DNA of 64,000 bases from Dyella terrae (GTDB taxonomy: Bacteria; Pseudomonadota; Gammaproteobacteria; Xanthomonadales; Rhodanobacteraceae): assembly GCF_004322705.1 (NCBI RefSeq), contig NZ_SIZZ01000002.1, positions 744,001-808,000 of the forward strand, written 5' to 3'. Below the pieces are notes generated by a model. That model saw only the letters and a program-made list of their open reading frames with translations, did not search any database and was not told the origin of the DNA. The position numbers were made by a program, and so were the translations under genes. The first letter of the stretch is position 1. The number at the start of each line of letters is the position of its first letter. Positions 9,988 to 24,196 of the stretch are shown here, in pieces.

Positions 9988-12570
9988 ATGCGGATGGACA
10001 AACTGACTTCTCGGTTCCAGCAGGCACTGGCCGACGCCCAGTCCCTGGCTGTGGGACGCGACAACAACATGCTCGAGCCGGCGCACGTCATGGCTGCGCT
10101 GCTCGATCAGCAGGGTGGTTCGACCGGCCCTTTGCTTACCCAGGCCCAGGTCAATGTGCCGGCCTTGCGCCAGCGCGTCGGCGAAATCCTTGAGCGGCTT
10201 CCGCGCGTATCCGGACAGGAAGGCAATATCCATCTGGGCAACGAGCTTTCGCGCCTGCTCAACCTCACCGACAAGCTGGCGCAGCAGCGAGGCGACCAGT
10301 TCATCGCCAGCGAGTTGTTCCTGCTTGCCGCGCTCGAAGACAAAGGCGAAGTCGGCACGGCGCTCAAGGCGGCCGGTGCCACCAAGGCCAACATCGAAGC
10401 GGCCATCGAAAAGCTGCGCGGTGGCGAAAAAGTCCAGAGCGAAAACGCCGAGGAGCAGCGCCAGGCGCTCGAAAAATACTGTGTCGATCTCACGTCGCGC
10501 GCCGAAAGCGGCAAGCTCGATCCGGTCATTGGTCGCGACGAAGAGATTCGCCGCACCATCCAGGTCCTGCAACGCCGCACCAAGAACAACCCGGTGCTGA
10601 TCGGCGAGCCTGGCGTGGGCAAGACCGCCATCGTCGAGGGACTCGCGCAGCGCATCGTCAAGGGCGAAGTGCCTGAAGGCCTGCGTGATCGTCGCGTGCT
10701 GGCCCTGGACATGGGCGCACTGATCGCGGGTGCCAAGTTCCGTGGCGAGTTCGAAGAGCGCCTCAAAGGCGTGCTGAACGACCTGGCCAAGCAGGAAGGT
10801 CGCGTCATTCTCTTCATCGACGAACTGCACACCATGGTCGGCGCAGGCAAGGCCGACGGCGCGATGGACGCAGGCAACATGCTCAAGCCGGCGCTTGCGC
10901 GTGGCGAACTGCATTGCATTGGCGCTACGACGCTCGACGAGTATCGCAAGTACATCGAGAAGGACGCCGCGCTGGAGCGCCGCTTCCAGAAGGTGTTTGT
11001 GGGCGAGCCGAGCGTCGAGGACACCATCGCCATCCTTCGCGGCCTGAAGGAGCGCTATGCGGTGCATCACGGCGTGGAAATCACTGACCCGGCGATCGTG
11101 GCCGCGGCCACGCTCTCCAACCGCTACATCACCGATCGCCAGCTGCCGGACAAGGCCATCGACTTGATGGACGAGGCGGCGAGCCGTCTGCGCATGGAAA
11201 TCGATTCCAAGCCGGAGGAACTCGATCGCCTGGAGCGTCGCCTGATCCAGCTGAAGATCCAGCGCGAGATGCTCAAGAAGGAAACGGACGAGGCGTCGAA
11301 AAAGCGCCTGGCCGATCTCGAAACGGATATCGAAAAGCTCGAGCGCGAATTCTCTGACCTCAATGAAATCTGGAAGTCGGAAAAGGCCGCGTTGCAGGGT
11401 GCCGCCAAGATCAAGGAGCAGATCGAAGCCGCGCGCGTCGATCTCGACGCCGCCCAGCGTCGCCAGGACTACGCGAAGATGAGCGAGATCCAGTACGGTC
11501 GCCTGCCGGAACTGGAAAAGCAGCTCGCTGCCGCGCAGGCCGCCGAGAAGCAGGAATTCAAGCTCGTGCAGGACCGCGTGACCGACGAGGAGATCGCCGA
11601 AGTCGTTTCGCGCTGGACGGGCATTCCCGTCAACAAGATGCTCGAAGGCGAGCGCGACAAACTGCTGCACATGGAAGACGCGCTGCACCACCGCGTGGTG
11701 GGCCAGGACGAAGCGGTGCGCGCGGTATCCGACGCCATTCGTCGTGCCCGCGCCGGCTTGTCCGATCCCAATCGACCCTACGGTTCCTTCCTGTTCCTTG
11801 GTCCCACCGGCGTGGGCAAGACGGAACTGTGCAAGGCGCTGGCCGAATTCCTGTTCGACACGCAGGACGCGATGGTGCGCATCGACATGAGTGAGTTCAT
11901 GGAGAAGCACTCCGTGAGCCGCCTGATCGGTGCGCCCCCGGGCTATGTCGGCTACGAAGAGGGCGGTTACCTGACCGAGGCCGTGCGTCGTCGTCCGTAC
12001 AGCGTGATCCTGCTCGATGAGGTCGAAAAGGCCCATCCGGATGTGTTCAACATCCTGCTGCAAGTGCTCGACGACGGTCGCCTGACGGACGGCCAGGGTC
12101 GCACGGTGGACTTCCGCAATACCGTCATCGTGATGACGTCCAACCTGGGTTCTCAGTTGATCCAGGAGATGGAATCGGACGATGCGGACGAGGCGTATAC
12201 GAAGATGAAGGCTGCGGTGCTCGGGGTGGTGCAGGCCCACTTCCGGCCGGAGTTCATCAATCGTCTCGACGAACTGGTGGTCTTCCGTCCGCTGGAGAAG
12301 AAACAGATCCGCGCGATTGCGAAGATCCAGCTGGCGTATCTGGAGAAGCGACTGGCCGAGCGCGATCTGCATCTGGAGATCAACGACAAGGCGCTCGATC
12401 TTCTGGGCAATGTCGGCTTCGATCCCGTGTATGGTGCGCGTCCGCTTAAGCGCGCGATCCAGCAACAACTGGAGAACCCTCTGGCGCGGGAAATCCTCGA
12501 AGGGCGCTTCGCCCCGGGGGCAACCATCGTTGTCGATGCGGCGCAGGGCAAGCTGACCTTCGGCGCGTAG
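9988..12570 (+). CDS. clpB: ATP-dependent disaggregase ClpB
   Basis: 860 residues, the usual ClpB length. In order: N-terminal Clp repeat domain, first AAA module with Walker A GEPGVGKT at 206-213 and Walker [12 protein letters not shown], the long coiled-coil middle domain at roughly 400-520 (rich in K, E and R) that distinguishes ClpB from ClpA, and the second AAA module with Walker A GPTGVGKT at 605-612. With DnaK it pulls proteins out of aggregates after heat stress. The ATG at 9988 has GGGGAGA six bases upstream. Single gene, with its own promoter and terminator. Confidence 0.98.
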
Positions 12571-12627: not shown

Positions 12628-12691
12628 TTTACGTGCGGCCGATCACTAAGACATTTCCTTATTTCACACCCTCTGCACTAAGATGCCCCCA

Positions 12692-12905
12692 CCTGAGGTG
12701 ACCGCTGGCCAGGCCAGTGGTTGAAACGGGAATCCGGTACGGCGCAAGCCAAGTCCGGAGCTGCCCCCGCAACGGTAGGCGAGTAAACGATCAGCGAATA
12801 CCACTGTGCTTAGGCATGGGAAGGTGCTGATTCGAGGCAACCAGCCTCGCTCGCGAGCCCGGAGACCGGCCTCGAGGTAAGACCAGACTTGCGGTGGGCA
12901 AGGTC
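12692..12905 (+). promoter_or_regulatory. Cobalamin (AdoCbl) riboswitch before btuB
   Basis: The region carries the conserved blocks of the cobalamin aptamer: TGAAACGGGAATCCGGT at about 12722, CCGGAGCTGCCCCCGCAACG at about 12756-12775, and the B12 box AGCCCGGAGACCGGCCT at about 12856-12872. No U-run terminator follows. Instead a short hairpin (CCGCG at 12976-12980 with CGCGG at 12989-12993) sits just before the btuB ribosome binding site AAGGAG at 12996, which points to control of translation initiation. It should shut off the whole operon when adenosylcobalamin is plentiful. The edges are approximate. Confidence 0.95.
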
Positions 12906-13006: not shown

Positions 13007-14866
13007 GTGTCATTGCGAGTTTCTTTTCTGCGTCGGTCCGTGCTGGCCTGCGCACTTATTGCTGTGTTTCCTTCCGCCTATGCCGCTGATAGCGGCGACG
13101 CCAACGACCTGAAGGGCGTGGTCGTCACGGCGACCCGTACCGATCAGACCGAAGCGAGCACGCTGGCATCGGTGACGGTCATTGACCGCGCGCAGATCGA
13201 ACGTCTGCAGGCGCAGTCCGTGCAGGACCTGCTGCGCGGCACGCCGGGCATGTCGATCGCCAACAATGGCGGCCCGGGCAAGTCGACGTCGCTGTTCCTT
13301 CGCGGCACCGAATCGGACCATGTGCTGGTGCTCGTGGATGGCGTGAAGATTGGCTCGGTGACGAGCGGTGGCGCGTCGATCCAGGACATCCCGGTCGAGC
13401 AGATCGAGCGCATTGAAATCGTGCGCGGTCCGTTCTCCAGCTTGTATGGCTCCGAAGCCATCGGTGGCGTCATCCAGATCTTCACCCGTCGCCCGCAAGG
13501 CCCGTTCGAGCCGAGCCTGTACTTTGGCTTCGGCAGCAACCGCACCATCAACGGCGGTGCCGGTGTGGGCGGCAAGGTCGGCAACGGCTGGTACCAGGTG
13601 CAGCTGTCGCATGACGGCACCGATGGCATCAATGCCTGCCGCGGCAAGCCGTCGCCGGGCGGCGCGGGCTGCTTTGTCTACCAGCCGGATCGCGATGGTT
13701 TCCGCAACAACTCAGCGTCGATCAAGGGCGGCTACGAGTTCAGCAAGCAGTGGGAAGCCGACGCACAGTGGCTGCGTACGGATGGCTATAACCGCTATGA
13801 CGGATCAACGTCCAATGCCGCCAAAGTTGTGGAACAGGTCGTGGGCGCGAGCCTGCGCTACCGCCCGACGGACTGGGCCAAGTTCACGCTCAACGCAGGC
13901 CAGAGCGCTGATCTGAGCGACAACTACTACAACGCGAAGTACCAGAGCACGTTCAACACGCACCGCGACGTTGGCACGCTGCAGGCCGATCTTGGCCTTG
14001 GTGGTGGTCTGTGGACGTTCGGCTTCGACTGGCAGCGTGACCGCGTCGACGGCAACACGGCGTACGCCCGCGATCAGCGTCTCAATCGCGGTGTGTTCGG
14101 CCAGTGGCAGCAGACGTTCGGTACGCAATCGCTGCAGGCCAGTGTGCGACGCGACGACAACGAACAATTCGGCGGCAAGACCACCGGCAGTCTGCTGTGG
14201 GGCTGGGATTTCACTGACAGCCTGCGCCTGACCGCAAGCGCCGGTTCGGCGTACAAAGCGCCTACTTTCAACGAGCTGTACTACCCGGGTTACGGCAACG
14301 CCAACCTCAATCCCGAGACTTCGCGCAGCTACGAGCTGGGTCTGCGCGGCATGCATGGCTGGGGTCACTGGTCGTTGAATGCGTTCGAAACGCACGTCGA
14401 CAATCTGATCGCCTATGACTCGTCCATCGGACTGCCGGGCAACGTCGAGCACGCGCGCATTCAGGGCGCCGAGGCCGTCATCGGCACCGAGCTGGCTGGC
14501 TGGAACATCAACGGCACGGCGACGTGGCTGGATCCGCGCAACGAAAGTCGCGGGGCCAATCATGGCAACTACCTGGCTCGCCGTGCACCGCGCAGCGCGC
14601 GCGTGGACGTCGATCGCAGCTTCGGTGTTTTCGGCATCGGCGGCAGCGTCTACGCCGCCAGTCATCGTTACGACGACGTCGCCAACAAGAAGCAGCTGGG
14701 TGGTTACGGCCTCACCGACCTTCGTGTGAGCTGGGCCTTCGATCGCGACTGGCGCCTGCAGCTCAGCGGCAGCAACGTCTTCAACAAGCACTACGAGACC
14801 GCGGCTTACTACAACCAGCTCGGCCGCACGTACATGTTGAGCGTGCGTTACGCACCGACACACTGA
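13007..14866 (+). CDS. btuB: TonB-dependent vitamin B12 outer membrane receptor
   Basis: 619 residues: signal peptide 1-27 (ends PSAYAA), a TonB box region near DLKGVVVTATRTD, a plug domain (LLRGTPGMSIANNGGPGKSTSLFLRG, VLVDGVKIGS, IEIVRGPFSSLYGSEAIGGVIQIFT) and a 22-strand barrel ending in an aromatic-rich strand. The plug motifs match BtuB closely, and the riboswitch directly upstream fixes the substrate class as corrinoid. Translation starts at a GTG five bases after AAGGAG. It is the first gene of the cobalamin operon. Confidence 0.96.
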   Translation: MSLRVSFLRRSVLACALIAVFPSAYAADSGDANDLKGVVVTATRTDQTEASTLASVTVIDRAQIERLQAQSVQDLLRGTPGMSIANNGGPGKSTSLFLRGTESDHVLVLVDGVKIGSVTSGGASIQDIPVEQIERIEIVRGPFSSLYGSEAIGGVIQIFTRRPQGPFEPSLYFGFGSNRTINGGAGVGGKVGNGWYQVQLSHDGTDGINACRGKPSPGGAGCFVYQPDRDGFRNNSASIKGGYEFSKQWEADAQWLRTDGYNRYDGSTSNAAKVVEQVVGASLRYRPTDWAKFTLNAGQSADLSDNYYNAKYQSTFNTHRDVGTLQADLGLGGGLWTFGFDWQRDRVDGNTAYARDQRLNRGVFGQWQQTFGTQSLQASVRRDDNEQFGGKTTGSLLWGWDFTDSLRLTASAGSAYKAPTFNELYYPGYGNANLNPETSRSYELGLRGMHGWGHWSLNAFETHVDNLIAYDSSIGLPGNVEHARIQGAEAVIGTELAGWNINGTATWLDPRNESRGANHGNYLARRAPRSARVDVDRSFGVFGIGGSVYAASHRYDDVANKKQLGGYGLTDLRVSWAFDRDWRLQLSGSNVFNKHYETAAYYNQLGRTYMLSVRYAPTH

Positions 14867-14892: not shown

Positions 14893-15471
14893 ATGAAACT
14901 CACCGAACATCGTTCCATCTTGTTGTGGGTCGTACTGACCGCCGTGATGATCGCCACGCGCTTCCATCACTTCGGCACCGCACTGAACCTGCCGGATGCG
15001 TCCATGGCAGTGTTTTTCCTCGGCGGCCTCGGCCTGCGCCGTCACCTGGGCTTTGCCTGGTTCATGGTGCTGGCGGTGGTGCTGGACTGGATCTCGGTAT
15101 CGCTTGCCGGCGTCAGCGATTTCTGCGTGACGCCGGCATACTCGTTCCTGCTGCTGGCCTATGCCGTGCTCTGGTATGCCGGTCGCGCCTATGCCGGGCT
15201 GCTCAAGCCGACAGTGGCGTCGGTTGCCGGTGCGTTGGGCGTGGGTCTGGTTGCCGCGAGCGTGTCCTTCGCCATATCCAACGGCTCGTTCTACTGGCTG
15301 GGCGGTCGCTATCCGGACCCGCATTTCACCGAGTACGTGTCGCGCCTGTGGAAGTGGGGTCCGCTGTTCGTCCGCACGACGATGACCTATCTCGCCGTGG
15401 CGCTGATCGGTTACGGCCTGGTGGCGCGCTGGTTTGCGAATCGCGAACAGACGGAAGGAGCGCGTCGATGA
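14893..15471 (+). CDS. BtuM-like inner-membrane cobalamin transporter, first copy
   Basis: 192 residues, mostly membrane; about six hydrophobic segments. It resembles BtuM, a stand-alone S-component-like cobalamin transporter described in Thiobacillus denitrificans, in length, topology and a conserved cysteine (Cys78 in DFCVTPAYSFLLLAY). In BtuM a cysteine at the matching place ligates the cobalt of the incoming corrinoid. The assignment is from memory of that family plus the operon position right after btuB; no alignment was run. No btuC, btuD or btuF gene is nearby, so this protein and the next are the only candidates in the window for the inner-membrane step. Confidence 0.75.
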   Translation: MKLTEHRSILLWVVLTAVMIATRFHHFGTALNLPDASMAVFFLGGLGLRRHLGFAWFMVLAVVLDWISVSLAGVSDFCVTPAYSFLLLAYAVLWYAGRAYAGLLKPTVASVAGALGVGLVAASVSFAISNGSFYWLGGRYPDPHFTEYVSRLWKWGPLFVRTTMTYLAVALIGYGLVARWFANREQTEGARR

Positions 15472-16076
15472 ATACTTCTGCCACCATGGACACGCTGCCC
15501 CTGCGCGGTTTTCGAGCCTCGATGATCGCCGCGTGCGTCCTGGCGCTGCTGATGATCCTCACGCGCGGCCAGCACTTCGCGTCGGTCAATGCGTTGCCCA
15601 GCGCCTCGTGGGCGGTGTTCTTCCTGGCCGGTGCACTGGTTCGCACGCGGTGGCTGTTCGTGTTCCTGTTTGCGCTGGCCTCAATGCTGGATCTCGGCAG
15701 CCTCGCCGCCGGCACGATTACCGACTGGTGCCTTAGCCCGGCGTACTGGGTGCTGGTGCCTGCGTATGGCACGCTGTGGTTCGCCGGGCGTCTCTATGGT
15801 CGCAAGCATGTCTTCCGTTGGAGCACCGTGCCGCGTCTCGCGATCACTCTGGTCGTGGCTGCTTTTGCGACCTATCTGATCTCCGGCGGCGGTTACTATG
15901 CGTTCTCCGGTCATTACGAGCCGACGTTCATGGGCTTCCTCCCGCGCATCGCGCATTACTACCCGCGCTCTCTGGGCACGATGTCTGGCTATGTGGCCGT
16001 GGGCTTTCTGGTGCTGTCGGTCGTGCGTGTCCTGGCCCCGCGTCTCTCGGCCGCCCCTTCGCGAGTCCACTCATGA
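15468..16076 (+). CDS. BtuM-like inner-membrane cobalamin transporter, second copy
   Basis: 202 residues, paralogous to the preceding protein. Shared blocks in the same order are RF/RGQHF, NALPSASWAVFFLAG (NLPDASMAVFFLGG in copy one), a run ending ASMLDLGSLAAG, and DWCLSPAYWVLVPAY with Cys88 matching Cys78 of copy one. About six membrane segments. Its ATG overlaps the stop of copy one (ATGA) and its own stop overlaps btuR. The pair is a tandem duplication that has diverged well beyond recent copying. Function as corrinoid or cobalt permease is inferred from family and context. Confidence 0.75.
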   Translation: MNTSATMDTLPLRGFRASMIAACVLALLMILTRGQHFASVNALPSASWAVFFLAGALVRTRWLFVFLFALASMLDLGSLAAGTITDWCLSPAYWVLVPAYGTLWFAGRLYGRKHVFRWSTVPRLAITLVVAAFATYLISGGGYYAFSGHYEPTFMGFLPRIAHYYPRSLGTMSGYVAVGFLVLSVVRVLAPRLSAAPSRVHS

Positions 16077-16702
16077 ACGAACGTCGCGACGCCCGTGAAG
16101 CGATGACGCCCGAAGAGCGTCATCGCGAGCGCATGCAGCGCAAGAAGGAGCTCATCGATCGCAAGATCGCGCGGGCCACCATCGAGCGCGGCGTGCTGGT
16201 GGTGAACACCGGCAACGGCAAGGGGAAGAGCTCCTCGGGCTTTGGCATGCTGGCGCGATCGCTGGGCCATGGATTTCGCTGTGGCGTCGTGCAGTTCATC
16301 AAAGGCAGCTTCTCGACGGGTGAAGAGGCCTTCTTCCGGCGCTTCGGTGAAGACCTCGACTACCACGTGATGGGCGAGGGCTTTACCTGGGAGACGCAGG
16401 ACAAGGCGCGCGACATCGCAGCTGCCGAGGCCGCCTGGAAAGTGGCGGCGGACATGCTCGCCGATGCTTCGTATGATTTTGTCTTGCTCGATGAACTGAA
16501 CATCGCGCTGGTCAAGCAGTACATCGACCTGGATGCGGTGCTTACGGCATTGGCGTCGCGTCCACCTGAGCAACATGTGGTGATCACAGGGCGCGGCGCG
16601 CCGGATCGTCTGGTCGAGGTGGCGGACACCGTGACGGAAATGCGCGTGGTCAAGCATGCGTTTCAGGCGGGCATCAAGGCGCAGCGAGGCATCGAACTGT
16701 GA
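16073..16702 (+). CDS. btuR: Cob(I)yrinic acid a,c-diamide adenosyltransferase
   Basis: 209 residues of the CobA/CobO/BtuR family. The P-loop is TGNGKGKSSSGFG at 46-58; VVQFIKGSFSTGEE and FVLLDELNIALVKQYIDL are the family's other signatures. It transfers the adenosyl group of ATP to reduced cobalt in corrinoids, the first step after import. A charged N-terminal stretch (to about residue 38) is typical and covers the active site. The start overlaps the preceding stop by four bases. Confidence 0.96.
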   Translation: MNERRDAREAMTPEERHRERMQRKKELIDRKIARATIERGVLVVNTGNGKGKSSSGFGMLARSLGHGFRCGVVQFIKGSFSTGEEAFFRRFGEDLDYHVMGEGFTWETQDKARDIAAAEAAWKVAADMLADASYDFVLLDELNIALVKQYIDLDAVLTALASRPPEQHVVITGRGAPDRLVEVADTVTEMRVVKHAFQAGIKAQRGIEL

Positions 16703-17994
16703 CCGCCATGCGCGCATGCCCGGCCTTGCTGGTATCGGCGCCTGCCTCGGGGCAGGGCAAGACGTCCTTTACGGCAGCGCTGGCGCGCGCTCATGTGCGG
16801 CAAGGCCGCAAGGTCCAGGTGTTCAAGACGGGGCCGGACTTCCTCGACTCGATGATCCTCGCGCGCGCCAGTGGCCGGCCCGTGTATCAGCTCGACGGCT
16901 GGATGGGTGGCGATGACGATATGCGTGCACGCCTGTATGCCGCGGCCGGCGAGGTCGATCTGATCCTCGTCGAAGGCGTCATGGGCCTCTTCGACGGATC
17001 GGCGTCGAGCGCGGCGCTGGCCATGCGCTTCGGCTTGCCCGTGCTGGCGGTGATCGATGGATCGGCGATGGCGCAGACGTTCGGTGCGATCGCTCACGGC
17101 CTCGCGCACTATCGCGATGGGCTCAAGGTGTATGGCGTCGCGGCCAACCGCGTTGGTAGCGCATATCACGCCAGCCTCCTCGAAGGCAGCCTGCCACCGG
17201 ATATCCAGTGGTTGGGTGCCTTGCCACGCGATGCGTCGATGGCACTGCCCGAGCGGCACCTTGGCCTGGTTTCGGCGAGTGAGCAGCAGGATCTTGATGC
17301 GCGCATCGATGCGCTAGCCGATGCACTTGAAGCACATGTGTCGGTGTCATTGCCGCCACCCGTGACCTTCCAGGCACAGGCGGTCGCGTCGATGCCGAAG
17401 CGCTTGCTCGGCGTGCGTATCGCCATCGCGCGCGATGATGCGTTCTGCTTCATCTATCCGGCCAACATCGATGTGCTCGAAGAAGCGGGTGCGACGCTGG
17501 TCTTCTTCTCGCCACTGGCTGGCGATGCCTTGCCCGATTGCGACGCGGTCTGGCTGCCGGGCGGCTATCCGGAACTGCATCTGGACGCGCTTTCTGGCCA
17601 CGTCACGTTGCATCGCGAGCTGCGTGAGCATGTCGATGCCGGCAAGCCACTTCTCGCCGAATGCGGCGGCATGTTGTACGCCATGGAGTCGCTTGCGGGC
17701 GTTGATGGCGAACCCCGGGTGATGGCCGGATTGTTGCCTGGAAGCGCCGCCATGCAATCGCGACTGGCCGGCCTGGGCATGCAAAGCGTGGCACTCCCGG
17801 AAGGCGAGTTGCGCGGCCACACCTTCCACTATGCGCGCGCCGAGATTGCGGCGACGCCGCTGGCGCAGGCACACAATCCCGACAAGGGGCCCAGCAAGGA
17901 AGCGGTCTATCGACGCCATCGATTCACGGCCAGCTTTGTGCACTTCTACTTCCCCTCCCATCCCGACGCCGCACTGCAACTGTTCGCACCGTGA
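16699..17994 (+). CDS. cobB: Cobyrinic acid a,c-diamide synthase
   Basis: 431 residues: an N-terminal dethiobiotin-synthetase-like ATP domain with the P-loop [12 protein letters not shown] at 13-24, and a C-terminal class I glutamine amidotransferase domain with the nucleophile Cys322 in [12 protein letters not shown]. It amidates the a and c side chains of cobyrinic (or hydrogenobyrinic) acid. Found here without ring-building genes, so it would act on salvaged, incompletely amidated corrinoids unless the ring genes are elsewhere. GTG start overlapping the btuR stop; an ATG nine bases on is the alternative. Confidence 0.94.
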
Positions 17995-18908
17995 CGATCG
18001 CACTCGCCATGCTTGCCGCCGTGCTGCTCGACCTTCTTCTCGGCGAGCCACGGCGCGCACACCCGTTGGTGGCATTTGGCCGTTGGGCGGCCTGGTGCGA
18101 ACGGTGCACGTATGGCGCATCGCGTTGGCGGGGCGTGTTGGCCTGGTCGCTGGCGGTCTTGCCTCTGGTGTCGATCACGTCGGGCCTGGCCTGGTTCGCC
18201 TGGCAGGTTTCGCCGTGGATGTATGGTCTGTATTCTGCCGTCGTTCTCTATCTGGCCATCGGTCTGCGCAGCCTGGGCGAGCACGCCTTGCCGGTGGCCA
18301 GCGCACTGGAGGCGGGCGACCTCGATGGCGCGCGAATCGCAGTGGGACGCATGGTCAGCCGCGACACGTTGGCGCTCGACGACGAGCGCGTGGCGGCTGC
18401 GGCGACCGAGTCCGTGCTGGAAAACGGCAACGATGCGGTCTTCGGTGCGCTGTTCTGGTTTGTTCTTCTCGGTGCGCCGGGCGTGGTGCTCTATCGCCTG
18501 TCCAACACGCTCGATGCGATGTGGGGTTACCGCACCGAGCGCTATGAGCGATTCGGCTGGGCCGCGGCGCGCATCGATGATCTGCTTAACCTGGTGCCGG
18601 CTCGCCTGACCGCTGCAACCTACGCGCTCATGGGCCACGCATCCACGGCGTGGCGCTGCTGGCGCCTTCAGGCACCGCAATGGGACAGCCCTAACGCAGG
18701 TCCCGTCATGTCCGCCGGTGCCGGTGCCCTGCGTGTGCGTCTGGGTGGGCCGGCGCCCTATCACGGTCAATGGGAAGAGCGCCCCGTGCTTGGCGAAGGT
18801 GTCGCGCCGGATGCGCACGCCATTCGGCGCTCGATGCGTCTCGTGCGCATGGGCGTGGCGCTCTGGGTATTCGTAGTGATCCTTGCAGGATGGGCCTGGC
18901 ATGCTTGA
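17991..18908 (+). CDS. cbiB: Adenosylcobinamide-phosphate synthase (CbiB/CobD)
   Basis: 305-residue integral membrane protein. [20 protein letters not shown] at the start and [14 protein letters not shown] near the end are the family's conserved motifs, and [36 protein letters not shown] is its core. It attaches (R)-1-amino-2-propanol or its phosphate to adenosylcobyric acid. GTG start overlapping the cobB stop by four bases (GTGA). The aminopropanol phosphate is supplied by the next gene. Confidence 0.94.
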
Positions 18909-19911
18909 ACACGGCGGACGTTTGCGGCGGGCAGCGCGCGAGTACGGCATCCCGTTGGAAGACTGGCTCGATCTGTCGACGGGCATCAGTCCGTTCGCCT
19001 GGCCCGTGCCTGACATTCCCGGCGAGGCCTGGCATCGCCTGCCCGAGGACGACGACGGCCTCATGGAAGTCGCGCGCGACTACTACGGTACGCAGGCGTT
19101 GCTGCCGGTATCCGGGACGCAGGCGGCCATCCAGTCGTTGCCACTGCTTCGCGATCATTCGCGCGTGGGTGTTCTTGCACCCGGCTATGCGGAGCACGCG
19201 CATGTCTGGCGACGCGTGGGGCACGACGTTCGCCCGCGGTCGGCGGCCGATCTGCTGTCGAGCGGCGATCGCTACGATGTCGTCATTCTGATCAACCCGA
19301 ACAATCCAGGTGGCGAGACATTCGGCCGCGAACAACTGCTGGACCTTCATGCCAGCTTGCGTCGGCGCAGTGGCTGGCTGATTGTCGATGAAGCCTTCAT
19401 GGACGCGACGCCGGGAGAAAGCCTGTGTGCGATGCCGCCGCGGGAAGGCCTGATTGTCCTTCGCTCGGTGGGCAAGTTCTTCGGGCTCGCGGGTGCGCGC
19501 GCAGGGTTTGTCAGTGCGACGACCGACCTTCTGCTTGCCTTGCGATCCCATCTCGGGCCGTGGGCCCTGACCGGGCCGACACGGCATGTGCTCAAGCTGG
19601 CGCTGGCGGATACCGCATGGCACGTCGAAGCTCAGGCCAAGTTGCGCGCGGCGAGTACGCATCTGGCGGCTTTGCTTGCCAACCGTGGCCTCGCACCTTC
19701 GGCCGGCACCCCGTTCTTCCAGTGGTGCCGACATGCCCATGCGCCGGCCATCCAGCGAGCTCTCGCGCGCAAGGGTGTGCTGGTCCGCTTGTTCGATGAG
19801 CCGTCCAGCCTCCGGTTTGGCCTGCCCGGTTCGCAGGAGGCGTTCGATCGCCTGGATCGCGCGCTGCGCGAGGCCGTGGTCGCGCCCAACGTGCTGGGAC
19901 CAAGGCGATGA
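18901..19911 (+). CDS. cobD: Threonine-phosphate decarboxylase (CobD/CobC type)
   Basis: 336 residues of the fold-type I PLP aminotransferase family. [13 protein letters not shown] at the N-terminus, [30 protein letters not shown] and Lys192 ([16 protein letters not shown]), the Schiff-base lysine, identify it. It decarboxylates L-threonine-O-phosphate to the aminopropanol phosphate used by CbiB. I start at the ATG at 18901, which overlaps cbiB by eight bases, because MLEHGGRL is the family's usual N-terminus. The name follows Salmonella usage; Pseudomonas literature calls it CobC. Confidence 0.94.
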
Positions 19912-21371
19912 CGGCGCGCGTGTTGATGGTGCAGGGTTGTACGTCCGATGCGGGCAAGAGCACGGTCGTTGCGGCGTTGTGCCGGTGGCTGCGTCGTCGC
20001 GGTGTTCGCGTGGCGCCCTTCAAGCCGCAAAACATGGCGCTCAATTCCGCCGTGACGGTCGATGGCGGCGAAATCGGTCGCGCCCAGGCCGCGCAGGCGC
20101 AGGCCGCGGGAGTCGAACCCCACACGGATTTCAATCCGGTCCTGCTCAAGCCGAACACCGATGTGGGCGCGCAGGTCATCGTGCACGGCCGCGCCGTCGG
20201 CAACATGGACGCGCGTGACTATCACGCCTACAAGCGCATTGCGATGGATGCGGTGTTGTCCTCGCATGCGCGCCTGAGTACGCAGTACGACGTCATCGTG
20301 GTGGAAGGGGCGGGTAGCCCGGCCGAGATCAATTTGCGCGACCGCGACATCGCGAACATGGGGTATGCGGAGGCGGTGGATTGCCCGGTCGTCCTGGTCG
20401 CCGATATCGATCGCGGCGGCGTCTTCGCACACCTCGTCGGCACGCTCGCCTTGCTGTCGCCCAGTGAACGGGCGCGCGTGCGGGGTTTCATCGTCAACCG
20501 CTTTCGCGGGGATATCGCGCTGCTGCAACCGGGCCTCGACTGGCTTGAGCAGGAAACGGGCAAGCCCGTGCTGGGTGTGTTGCCCTACCTGCATGGACTT
20601 CATGTCGAGGCTGAAGACGCTTTGCCGAGGGTTCGCCAAAACAAAGCGGGCGATGTGCTGCGTGTGGCGGTTCCCGCTTTCCCGCGCATCAGCAATCACA
20701 CGGACTTCGACGCCTTGCAGGCCCATCCCGGGGTTGAGTTGAGCTGGGCGGGGCCGGGGCAGGCCATGCCCGCGTGCGACCTCATCGTGCTGCCGGGTTC
20801 GAAGTCCACGCGTGCCGACCTCGCATGGCTGCGCCAGCAGGGACACGATCGGGCCATCGCCAGGCATCTGCGCTACGGTGGCAAGGTGCTCGGCATTTGC
20901 GGGGGATTCCAGATGCTTGGCAACTTCGTCGACGATCCGCACGGCCTCGAAGGCGCGCCAGGAAGCAGCGAAGGCCTGGGCTGGCTGGCCGTATCGACGA
21001 CGCTTGAAACTGAGAAGCAGCTACGCCGCGTTGCCGGGGTGCTGGCGGAAAGTGGCGCTGCCGTGACGGGTTATGAAATCCATTGTGGTGTCACCAAGGG
21101 CATCGATCCCGCGACCGCCTTCTGCATCCTGGAGGACGGAAGGCCCGACGGTGCGCGCTCGGCCGATGGACAGGTGATGGGCACCTATCTTCATGGTGTC
21201 TTCGATCGTCCCGAAGCACTGGCGGCGCTGCTCGAGTGGGCGGGCTGGCGCGGTACCGAACATGTCGATATCGATGGCCTGCGCGAACAAAGTTTCGACA
21301 GACTGGCCGATAGCATCGACGCCCATCTGGATACGGATCTCCTTACCCAATGGATGGGACTCAACGGATGA
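19908..21371 (+). CDS. cobQ: Adenosylcobyric acid synthase
   Basis: 487 residues. N-terminal ATP domain with [19 protein letters not shown] and [21 protein letters not shown]-terminal glutamine amidotransferase with Cys331 in [12 protein letters not shown]. It amidates the b, d, e and g side chains of adenosylcobyrinic acid diamide to give cobyric acid, the substrate of CbiB. ATGA overlap with the preceding gene. Confidence 0.97.
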
Positions 21372-21886
21372 AGACACTGATTCTGGGTGGTGCGCGCTCG
21401 GGCAAGAGCGCGCTGGCCGAACAGCTGGCCGTGAACTGCGGCGACGATGTGGTTTATGTGGCGACGGCTCAGCCGCTGGACGCCGCCATGGCCGAACGTA
21501 TCGCCCATCATCGCGCACAACGCCCACGCTACTGGCACACGATCGAAGAACCGATGGCGCTGGCCGAAGCTTTGCGGGAGCACGCGCGTCCCGGGCGATG
21601 CATCCTGGTGGATTGCCTCACGTTGTGGCTCAGCAATCTCATCGGCAGCGATGACATGGCGAGGTTCGAACGCGAGCGTGATGGCTTCCTGGCATGCCTG
21701 GCAGATATCCCGGGTGAACTGTTGCTGGTCAGCAATGAAGTGGGCCTTGGCATCGTGCCGCTGGGCGAACTGAGCCGGCGATTCGTCGACGAGGCGGGCC
21801 GGCTGCATCAACGATTGGGGCAGACCTGCGATCGCGTCGTCTTCGTCGCGGCGGGATTGCCCATGACACTCAAGGGAAGTCTTTGA
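21368..21886 (+). CDS. cobU: Adenosylcobinamide kinase / guanylyltransferase
   Basis: 172 residues. P-loop GGARSGKS at 7-14; His47-His48 in [11 protein letters not shown] include the residue guanylylated during catalysis; [12 protein letters not shown] and [18 protein letters not shown] are conserved blocks. It phosphorylates adenosylcobinamide and adds GMP to give AdoCbi-GDP. I start at the ATG at 21368 that overlaps the cobQ stop (ATGA). Confidence 0.96.
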
Positions 21887-22938
21887 TGGAAGTGAACTGG
21901 ATCGAGCGCCCATGCCGCGTCGTCGACCGTGCGTGCGAGGCAAGAGCCCTCGCGCGCCAGGCCATGCTGACCAAGCCTCCGGGCTCGCTGGGGGCGCTCG
22001 AAAGCGCGGCCGTCCATCTGGCATCGCTGCAGGGCAAGGATGCGCCCTCACTGAAGAACGTCTGGATTACCGTCTTTGCGGGCGACCACGGCGTGGCGGC
22101 CGAAGGGGTTTCTGCATTTCCGCAAGCGGTTACCGGAGAAATGGTGCGGAACTTCGCGCGCGGTGGCGCGGCCATCAGCGTCCTGGCGCGCGAACTCGGT
22201 GCCTCGCTGGAAGTGGTCAACCTGGGCACGGTCAACGACCCCGGGACATGCCCCGGGGTTCGCACGGTCTACCTGGCTCCGCAGACCGGCAATCTGGCCC
22301 GCGAGGCTGCGATGACTGACGCGCAGTTGGCTGCGGCGCTCCAGGCCGGAGCTGACAGTGTCGAGGCGGCGCACACGGCGGACGTCCAGCTCTTCATTGC
22401 GGGCGACATGGGCATCGCCAATACAACGTCGGCCACGGCGCTTGCCTGTGCGCTGCTTGGCGAGTCGCCCCAGGACATGGTGGGTCGTGGAACCGGCGTC
22501 GATGATGCCGGGCTGGCGCGCAAAGTCGCGGTTGTTGCATCGGCCTTGTCCCTCCATGCAGATGCGAGCGATGCGAGGGAAGTGTTGCGTCGACTTGGCG
22601 GCTTCGAGATCGCGGCCATGGTGGGTGCTTATATCGCTGCCGCTCAGCGCGGCATCCCGGTGCTGATCGATGGATTCATCAGCTCGGTGGCCGCGCTGGC
22701 CGCCGTTCGGCTGAATCCGGATTCGCGCTGCTGGATGCTTTTCTCGCATCGTTCGCATGAGCGTGGTCATGCCCTGGTCCTGGCCGCGCTGGCTGCCAAG
22801 CCGCTGCTCGATTTGCAGATGCGCCTGGGTGAGGCCAGCGGCGCCGCCTCGGCCGTGCCGCTGCTTCGCCTGGCCTGCGCCTTGCACAACGGCATGGCGA
22901 CCTTTGCCGAAGCCGGCGTGTCGGATGGACCGGCATGA
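21886..22938 (+). CDS. cobT: Nicotinate-nucleotide:dimethylbenzimidazole phosphoribosyltransferase
   Basis: 350 residues. [48 protein letters not shown] and the catalytic Glu316 in RLGEASGAA are diagnostic. It makes alpha-ribazole phosphate from the lower-ligand base, so it decides which base is attached. No base-building gene (bluB or bza) is in the operon. I use the ATG at 21886, which shares a base with the cobU stop; a TTG three bases earlier is also in frame. Confidence 0.96.
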
Positions 22939-23474
22939 GCATCGAGTTGCTTCGTCACGGCGATACCGGGCAACGTAGCTACCGCGGACAACTGGACGAC
23001 CCGCTGAGCGAGCTGGGCTGGATGCAGTTGCGCGAGGCGACGTACGGTCGTCAGTGGGACATCATCATCACCTCTTCGATGCAGCGCTGCGCGGCGTTTG
23101 CCAGCGAGCTCGCGAGTGCCCTGCAGGTGCCGATCCAGGTCGACACGCGTCTGGTGGAGTATCACTTTGGTGACTGGCAGGGTGTGCCCATCGAAACGCT
23201 GGCGGAGGAGCAGGGTGATGCCCTGGGACGGTTCTGGAGCGATCCCGTGCGTTATCCGCCACCCGGTGGCGAAACCTTTGAGATGTTCGCAGCCCGCTTG
23301 TCGGCGGCGCTGGATGATGTCGTCGCGCAATACGCAGACGCTCGCGTGCTGGTGGTGACGCATGGCGGCGCCATTCGCTGGCTTCGTTGTCGAGCAGAGC
23401 GTCGCGACTTTGGTGACATGGCCGCCATCGATGTGCCGCATGCCTCGCTGCATGCGCTGGCGTGGACGGGCTGA
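22935..23474 (+). CDS. cobC: Alpha-ribazole phosphatase (CobC-type histidine phosphatase)
   Basis: 179 residues of the histidine phosphatase superfamily: LLRHGDTG with the phospho-accepting His8, and [14 protein letters not shown] with the second catalytic histidine. The context, between cobT and cobS, assigns it to removal of phosphate from alpha-ribazole phosphate or adenosylcobalamin phosphate. ATGA overlap upstream; its stop shares a base with cobS. Confidence 0.92.
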
Positions 23475-24196
23475 TGAACGCCTTCCTCGTTGCGCTGGGT
23501 TTCCTGACACGCATTCCGGTGCCACATCACGTGTTCGACGATGAGCGCGCACGCCGTCGCTCGCTGGCGTGGTATCCGGCGGTGGGGTTGGTGATCGGCG
23601 CGTTGCTGTTGGTTTCGCACTACGTCATGCGAGGGTGGCCGCCGTTGGTCGCCGCGTCGGTGCTGCTTCTGCTCTGGATCGTGGCGACGGGCGCACTGCA
23701 TCTGGACGGTCTGGCGGACAGTGCCGACGCGTGGATCGGCGGCCTGGGCGATCGTGAGCGCACCCTGGCGATCATGAAAGATCCTCGTTGCGGTCCGGCT
23801 GGTGTCGTTGCGTTGGTCTCCGTGCTTTTGCTGAAGTTCGCATGCCTTGCGAGCTTGTCTTCGGCATGGCCCGCGCTATGGGTTGCGCCTGTATTGGCCC
23901 GCTCAGTGTTGGTCGGCGCCTTTCTCGGCACGCCTTATGTTCGTGCGGGCGGGCTCGGTTCCCGGCTCGGTGATGGTGCGGGGCAAGCCTCGCGCATCGC
24001 ACTGGCTATGGTGGCCTTTGCCATCCTGTGGCTCGGCTGGCACGCCTGGTTGGCCACGGCGATCGTCCTGGCGCTCTTTGCCTGGTGGCGCCACGCGTGC
24101 GTCGCGCGCCTTGGCGGGATGACGGGCGATACCTGTGGCGCGCTGACAGAACTGACTGAAGTGGCCGTGCTGCTGGTGTTCGCCGCCGCCGGCTGA
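23474..24196 (+). CDS. cobS: Adenosylcobinamide-GDP ribazoletransferase (cobalamin synthase)
   Basis: 240-residue membrane protein. LVALGFLTRIPVP at the start, LHLDGLADSADAWIGG and the acidic motif region IMKDPRCGPAGVVALV are the family's signatures. It joins alpha-ribazole and AdoCbi-GDP, the last step of nucleotide-loop assembly, at the inner membrane. It is the last gene of the operon; ATG overlaps the cobC stop (TGATG). Confidence 0.96.
   Translation: MNAFLVALGFLTRIPVPHHVFDDERARRRSLAWYPAVGLVIGALLLVSHYVMRGWPPLVAASVLLLLWIVATGALHLDGLADSADAWIGGLGDRERTLAIMKDPRCGPAGVVALVSVLLLKFACLASLSSAWPALWVAPVLARSVLVGAFLGTPYVRAGGLGSRLGDGAGQASRIALAMVAFAILWLGWHAWLATAIVLALFAWWRHACVARLGGMTGDTCGALTELTEVAVLLVFAAAG

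Follow-up and report, generated by a model that had tools for sequence, protein, structure and literature searches.

In the window analysed here, a 64,000-nucleotide stretch of Dyella terrae DNA (contig NZ_SIZZ01000002.1, positions 744,001 to 808,000 of the forward strand), a riboswitch-controlled operon carries two adjacent genes, ORF1 and ORF2, encoding proteins of the BtuM family. By their placement in a phylogenetic tree, they represent two diverged lineages inside one operon, and sequence comparisons make it reasonably probable that both are self-sufficient, solitary BtuM carriers acting in riboswitch-controlled corrinoid salvage and differing in ligand preference or affinity. The initial annotation had described two BtuM-like proteins of 192 and 202 residues between btuB and btuR in a riboswitch operon, and the coordinates and the matches to RF00174, TIGR01779, and NF004637 agreed with this description. 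Below, G000 denotes the genome that contains the window, C1 and C2 its contigs, Lnnn extracted loci, and Gnnn genomes.

ORF1 and ORF2 shared 35% identity over 187 aligned columns (E 2e-24). No usable model of Pfam or NCBIfam matched either protein. A phmmer comparison with PDB entry 8c7p, which we infer from its title, length, and Cys80 to be BtuM of Thiobacillus denitrificans, gave E values of 1.2e-25 and 3.2e-35 for ORF1 and ORF2, respectively, and a profile match reached 1.6e-56; the alignment and profile check against BtuM that had been proposed thus placed both proteins in this family. The cysteine motifs had been read correctly: DFCVTPAY in ORF1 (Cys78) and DWCLSPAY in ORF2 (Cys88) share an alignment column with Cys80 of 8c7p, and the cysteine at this position was invariant in 34 of 34 ORF1-type and 50 of 50 ORF2-type rows. 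Cys78 and Cys88 may therefore be cobalt ligands. The structural model of ORF1 predicted a six-helix, S-component-like fold in which the place of Cys78, in loop 3, corresponds to that of Cys80 in BtuM, and showed 30–32% identity to 8c7p and 8ovv. The dN/dS values in the 25 closest pairs were 0.16–0.40 for ORF1 and 0.13–0.41 for ORF2, and the medians over 454 pairs with dS below 1.2 were 0.45 and 0.42, respectively. Because the ratios were low in the closest pairs, both ORF1 and ORF2 are real genes under purifying selection.

The relationship of the two genes was examined by a fast maximum-likelihood calculation over 94 rows; the resulting tree has no bootstrap, is unrooted, and contains four long rows. 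ORF1 rows formed one group (support 93), and the Lysobacterales ORF2 rows were nested in a group with Pseudomonadaceae (support 97). The rows of BtuM3, a third BtuM type described below, formed another group (support 99), except for the Panacagrimonas row. 8c7p fell on the ORF2 side (support 80–82). Because ORF1 and ORF2 fall in separate groups, the pair is not a recent duplication; a recent tandem duplication was rejected, since ORF1 of the window lay in a supported set of 25 ORF1 rows and ORF2 in one of 21 ORF2 rows.

The distribution of the types within the order was determined in 299 genomes sampled evenly from a larger set, with a separate profile for each type and at most 10 or 11 candidates scored per genome in each search. 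ORF2-type matches scored at least 198 bits, and the match below them, at 137 bits, was an ORF1; ORF1-type and BtuM3-type matches were accepted at E values of 1e-45 or less. Overlaps between types were counted by hand from the three match tables. ORF2, ORF1, and BtuM3 were present in 15, 43, and 116 of the 299 genomes, respectively, and any BtuM homologue in 135, including three with unclassified ones (G161, G177, and G339). The pair is thus no singular case but occurs in 15 genomes, with ORF1 adjoining ORF2 in every one of them. ORF1 occurred without ORF2 in 28 of its 43 genomes; in 14, no BtuM type other than ORF1 was detected. BtuM3 was present in 13 of the 15 ORF2 genomes (the exceptions being G345 and G362) and was alone in 89 genomes. 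The cobyric acid synthase gene cobQ was detected in 49 of the 299 genomes, namely all 43 ORF1 genomes, 4 of the 89 BtuM3-only genomes, G161, and G006, in the last of which no BtuM was found. In two of the four BtuM3-only genomes with cobQ (G051 and G092; loci L202 and L205), the salvage operon starts at cobO, contains no BtuM, and adjoins a different TonB receptor; these genomes retain BtuM3. In the family sample, a BtuM match was found in 110 of 147 genomes and an ORF2-type match (at least 56%) in 4.

Named genomes were scanned with the ORF2 profile, and the best 80 of 186 loci were kept, a sample in which ORF1-only loci cannot appear. Among these 80, 36 loci carried ORF1-ORF2-cobO (35 from Lysobacterales and one from another gammaproteobacterium), with the gene order kept in all 36 and btuB visible in 35; the remaining contig, L107, begins inside ORF1. 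Another 42 were Pseudomonadaceae loci with an ORF2-type gene and no ORF1 in the DNA around the locus, which is what was covered rather than whole genomes, and one metagenome-assembled genome (MAG) was similar. The Panacagrimonas locus had a BtuM3-like gene where ORF1 would be. In the class sample, for which at most 8 candidates per genome were scored, 40 of 369 genomes had a BtuM match at E 1e-10, and no adjacent pair was found among them besides that of G000. In G536, a class genome close to Pseudomonadaceae, the ORF2-type protein was the sole BtuM match. G384, G646, and G707 had two BtuM copies per locus, with starts 4.7–9.3 kb apart, one copy lying beside cobO and the other beside cobS; the salvage operons L187, L188, and L189, from class genomes of two other families, show this arrangement. 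G410, G524, and G635 had two copies at separate places. In Azotobacter vinelandii CA, an ORF2-type BtuM frame lies directly behind btuB (L128:7983-8546); PMC4465626 describes strain DJ as having no btuM and an enlarged BtuB.

The 36 tandem and 42 Pseudomonadaceae loci, a sample picked by ORF2 similarity, had median identities to the window of 58.6 versus 54.4 for ORF2, 60.2 versus 47.9 for BtuB, 73.6 versus 68.6 for CobQ, and 67.4 versus 61.8 for CobU. These values did not demonstrate a horizontal gain of ORF2 from Pseudomonadaceae: its drop in identity was smaller than that of BtuB but close to those of CobQ and CobU.

The initial annotation had taken the pair as the only inner-membrane candidates for corrinoid uptake. 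This did not hold, because the genome encodes BtuM3 (214 aa, HYCVS motif), matched at C2:701252-701863, outside the window at a distance of about 57 kb from ORF1. The gene immediately downstream of BtuM3 encodes a PduO-type adenosyltransferase (TIGR00636, 210.6 bits, cut-off 108). BtuM3 adjoined PduO on the upstream side in all 20 distinct Lysobacterales BtuM3 loci read, an association that extends the published co-location of btuM with btuR, and no riboswitch was detected in any of the 14 distinct BtuM3 loci searched. A diverged BtuM from outside the order, on a long tree branch, also precedes PduO (L193:5993-7070).

The genome search for btuCDF that had been suggested found none with FecCD and BtuF-type searches. 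The single FecCD match belongs to an operon that also has a TonB receptor, HemS/ChuX, a PF01497 protein, and an ABC ATPase, and because of these neighbours the operon most likely encodes a haem importer; its PF01497 protein scored 74.5 against a cut-off of 234 for the BtuF model NF002894. A search for EcfT/CbiQ (PF02361) yielded no match in the genome and, as a control, was positive in 10 of 14 genomes. Users of B12 were present: a MetH frame was matched from model position 342 with a score above the cut-off, and the frame of an IcmF-type mutase, truncated by the end of its locus, reached 746.8 bits (cut-off 1500). The ring-synthesis genes examined were the PF00590 methylases, of which the genome has four, namely CysG, a 16S rRNA methyltransferase, and two without an NCBIfam name at E 1e-15, a composition that points to the absence of corrin-ring synthesis. 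The two nameless tetrapyrrole-methylase proteins are encoded 27 kb apart on contig 3 (L141 and L142).

The features of the operon and of the BtuM3 locus are listed in the table. ATGA overlaps join ORF1 to ORF2 and ORF2 to cobO, and 26 bases separate btuB from ORF1. For the region 17991..24196, we take the genes from their translations to be cbiB, cobC, cobQ, cobU, cobT, a phosphatase gene, and cobS, cobQ alone being backed by a model. The RF00174 riboswitch was also found at 4 of 5 operon loci of one set, the fifth (L038) being a short contig without btuB, and at 9 of 9 of a second set (8 tandem and 1 Stutzerimonas). Upstream of the riboswitch lies a gene that, from its translation alone, encodes a ClpB-like chaperone (window positions 9988-12570).

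Table. Positions of the operon features in the window and of the BtuM3 locus elsewhere in the genome.
Feature	Position	Strand	Basis or remark
Cobalamin riboswitch aptamer	12679..12888	+	Rfam RF00174, 109.7 bits, E 1.4e-26; upstream of btuB
btuB, TonB-dependent vitamin B12 outer-membrane receptor	13007..14866 (putative start codon)	+	TIGR01779, 727 bits, cut-off 600
ORF1, BtuM family, 192 aa, Cys78 in loop 3	14893..15471	+	Group only in Lysobacterales among rows examined
ORF2, BtuM family, 202 aa, Cys88	15468..16076	+	PDB 8c7p, E 3.2e-35; group shared with Pseudomonadaceae
cobO/btuR, ATP:corrinoid adenosyltransferase	16073..16702	+	NF004637 and TIGR00708 above cut-off; PF02572
Cobyrinic acid a,c-diamide synthase (cbiA/cobB)	16699..17994	+	NF002204 above cut-off
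Cobyric acid synthase (cobQ)	19908..21371	+	NF001989 at G000:C2:763920-765356, E 1.9e-204
Remaining late cobalamin pathway	17991..24196	+	Open frames; same-order homologues in most operon loci
BtuM3 and PduO locus	L033:7666-8891 = G000 C2:700665-701890		No recognised riboswitch

ORF1 and ORF2 differed at conserved positions. For example, ORF1 has Met38 and Gly137 in place of a Trp and a Ser, respectively, that are retained in ORF2, BtuM3, and 8c7p. Of 17 contrasting conserved columns, 11 were on the periplasmic side, defined as the outer loops plus or minus six residues on the ORF1 model with the orientation taken from PMC6072759 (p 0.005 versus all other residues). The two corrinoid specificities proposed initially may exist, as they fit the separate groups, the different conserved residues, and the different gene partners.

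Self-sufficiency of each carrier is suggested because each type occurs independently and the published BtuM works alone, and a different ligand preference or affinity of ORF1 and ORF2 is probable because of their divergence, their partner genes, and the 17 contrasting conserved columns. Under corrinoid scarcity, the riboswitch would induce btuB together with the two carriers and the late-pathway genes. ORF1 or ORF2 would accept corrinoid from BtuB and, by toppling, carry it into the cell down its concentration gradient, and CobO would trap the imported molecule. The two carriers could divide complete cobalamin from incomplete corrinoids finished by CbiA, CobQ, and the nucleotide-loop enzymes, or they could differ in affinity. 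BtuM3, beside PduO, would provide a separately regulated uptake route.

Several observations weigh against this reading. In the order, ORF2 was never found without ORF1 (15/15), a pattern that a heteromer or a helper role would also give, and the co-occurrence of ORF1 with cobQ is largely due to shared operon membership. The genome also encodes a second PF01497 protein, a BtuF-like orphan without a FecCD partner (C1:1917007-1917693; L143:7008-7694), which might serve a BtuM; the frames ahead of it are presumably proC and yggT. Moreover, the contrasts were not enriched on the periplasmic side when compared with columns conserved to the same residue (11/17 versus 14/31, p 0.24). Because the enrichment was lost against equally conserved columns, the contrast columns only weakly suggest a difference in specificity. 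On the same result, conserved contrasts were dropped as a proof of specificity.

A heteromer of ORF1 and ORF2, or ORF2 acting as a helper of ORF1 with both needed for uptake, would explain the coupled genes with their ATGA overlap, the adjacency of ORF1 in all 15 ORF2 genomes of the order, and the gene order kept in all 36 tandem loci. We nevertheless regard the heteromeric transporter proposed initially as unlikely, because either type is also found alone: ORF1 in 28 of 43 genomes, in 14 of them as the only type found, and the ORF2 type at the 42 Pseudomonadaceae loci (locus DNA only) and as the sole match in G536. In addition, PMC6072759 reports that the characterised BtuM functions in E. 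coli with no partner proteins of its native host. Still less likely is that one of the proteins, most probably ORF1, is a corrinoid receptor, decyanase, or chaperone feeding CobO or another carrier. ORF1 has conserved residues of its own (Met38 and Gly137), and decyanation would in principle be separable from transport, but the 14 genomes in which ORF1 is the sole BtuM type found all have the salvage gene cobQ. In these genomes, import would fall to ORF1 unless a further importer escaped detection, BtuCDF having been searched for in G000 only.

Two further readings are possible, although we hold each of them to be doubtful. The two proteins could be interchangeable carriers that raise uptake capacity for the same ligand. 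They share the family, ligand cysteine, operon, and riboswitch, their dN/dS values are similar, and 28 of 43 ORF1 genomes manage without ORF2; a recent dosage duplicate would, however, be similar in sequence, whereas ORF1 and ORF2 have 35% identity, separate tree groups, and 17 contrasting columns. It is equally tentative that Lysobacterales have three functionally distinct BtuM routes, in which BtuM3 would import complete cobalamin without a riboswitch, ORF1 would supply the salvage operon with incomplete corrinoids (cobinamide, cobyric or cobyrinic acid), and ORF2 would be a Pseudomonas-type high-affinity cobalamin importer added to this operon. As part of this reading, two-carrier salvage operons would have arisen more than once, in Panacagrimonas and three class genomes as well; if true, paired BtuM proteins would therefore be a general way of handling mixed corrinoids.

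The literature found covers a single characterised BtuM, and the mechanism by which a solitary S-component-like protein transports a large vitamin is still a question. With three diverged BtuM proteins in one cell, the determinants of ligand choice in the family could be studied directly, the contrasts between ORF1 and ORF2 name candidate residues for them, and the positions of ORF2 and BtuM3 directly upstream of adenosyltransferases offer a way to ask whether these enzymes trap the product. As far as its text was accessible, the open-access literature found did not describe a tandem BtuM pair, Supplementary Data 1 of PMC6072759 (a list of BtuM homologues) being outside the search; the name BtuM2 was absent from the open-access literature searched, and no open-access paper linking the cobalamin riboswitch with Xanthomonadales was found.

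The proteins can be compared with three known systems. BtuCDF catalyses the presumed step after BtuB, as proposed here for BtuM, but is not homologous to it, and the only FecCD permease of the genome lies in the haem-type operon. The ECF S-components RibU, ThiT, FolT, and BioY showed 4–13% identity, and the genome had no EcfT/CbiQ match for such a system; the cobalt-ligand cysteine is not known from these families. The closest system is BtuM of T. denitrificans (8c7p and 8ovv). Rempel et al. (2018; PMC6072759) report that its cysteine ligates the cobalt of the base-off form on the alpha side and decyanates the ligand, that the protein needs no ECF module to sustain B12-dependent growth, and that btuM is co-located with btuR, with trapping by adenosylation being proposed. 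This protein has about 200 residues, six helices, and the loop-3 cysteine column (Cys80) in common with those described here, and its gene likewise lies beside btuR in a genome without an ECF module. In the tree it sides with ORF2 at moderate support, apart from the groups of ORF1 and BtuM3, and the D. terrae genome differs in having two diverged copies in one operon and a third beside PduO.
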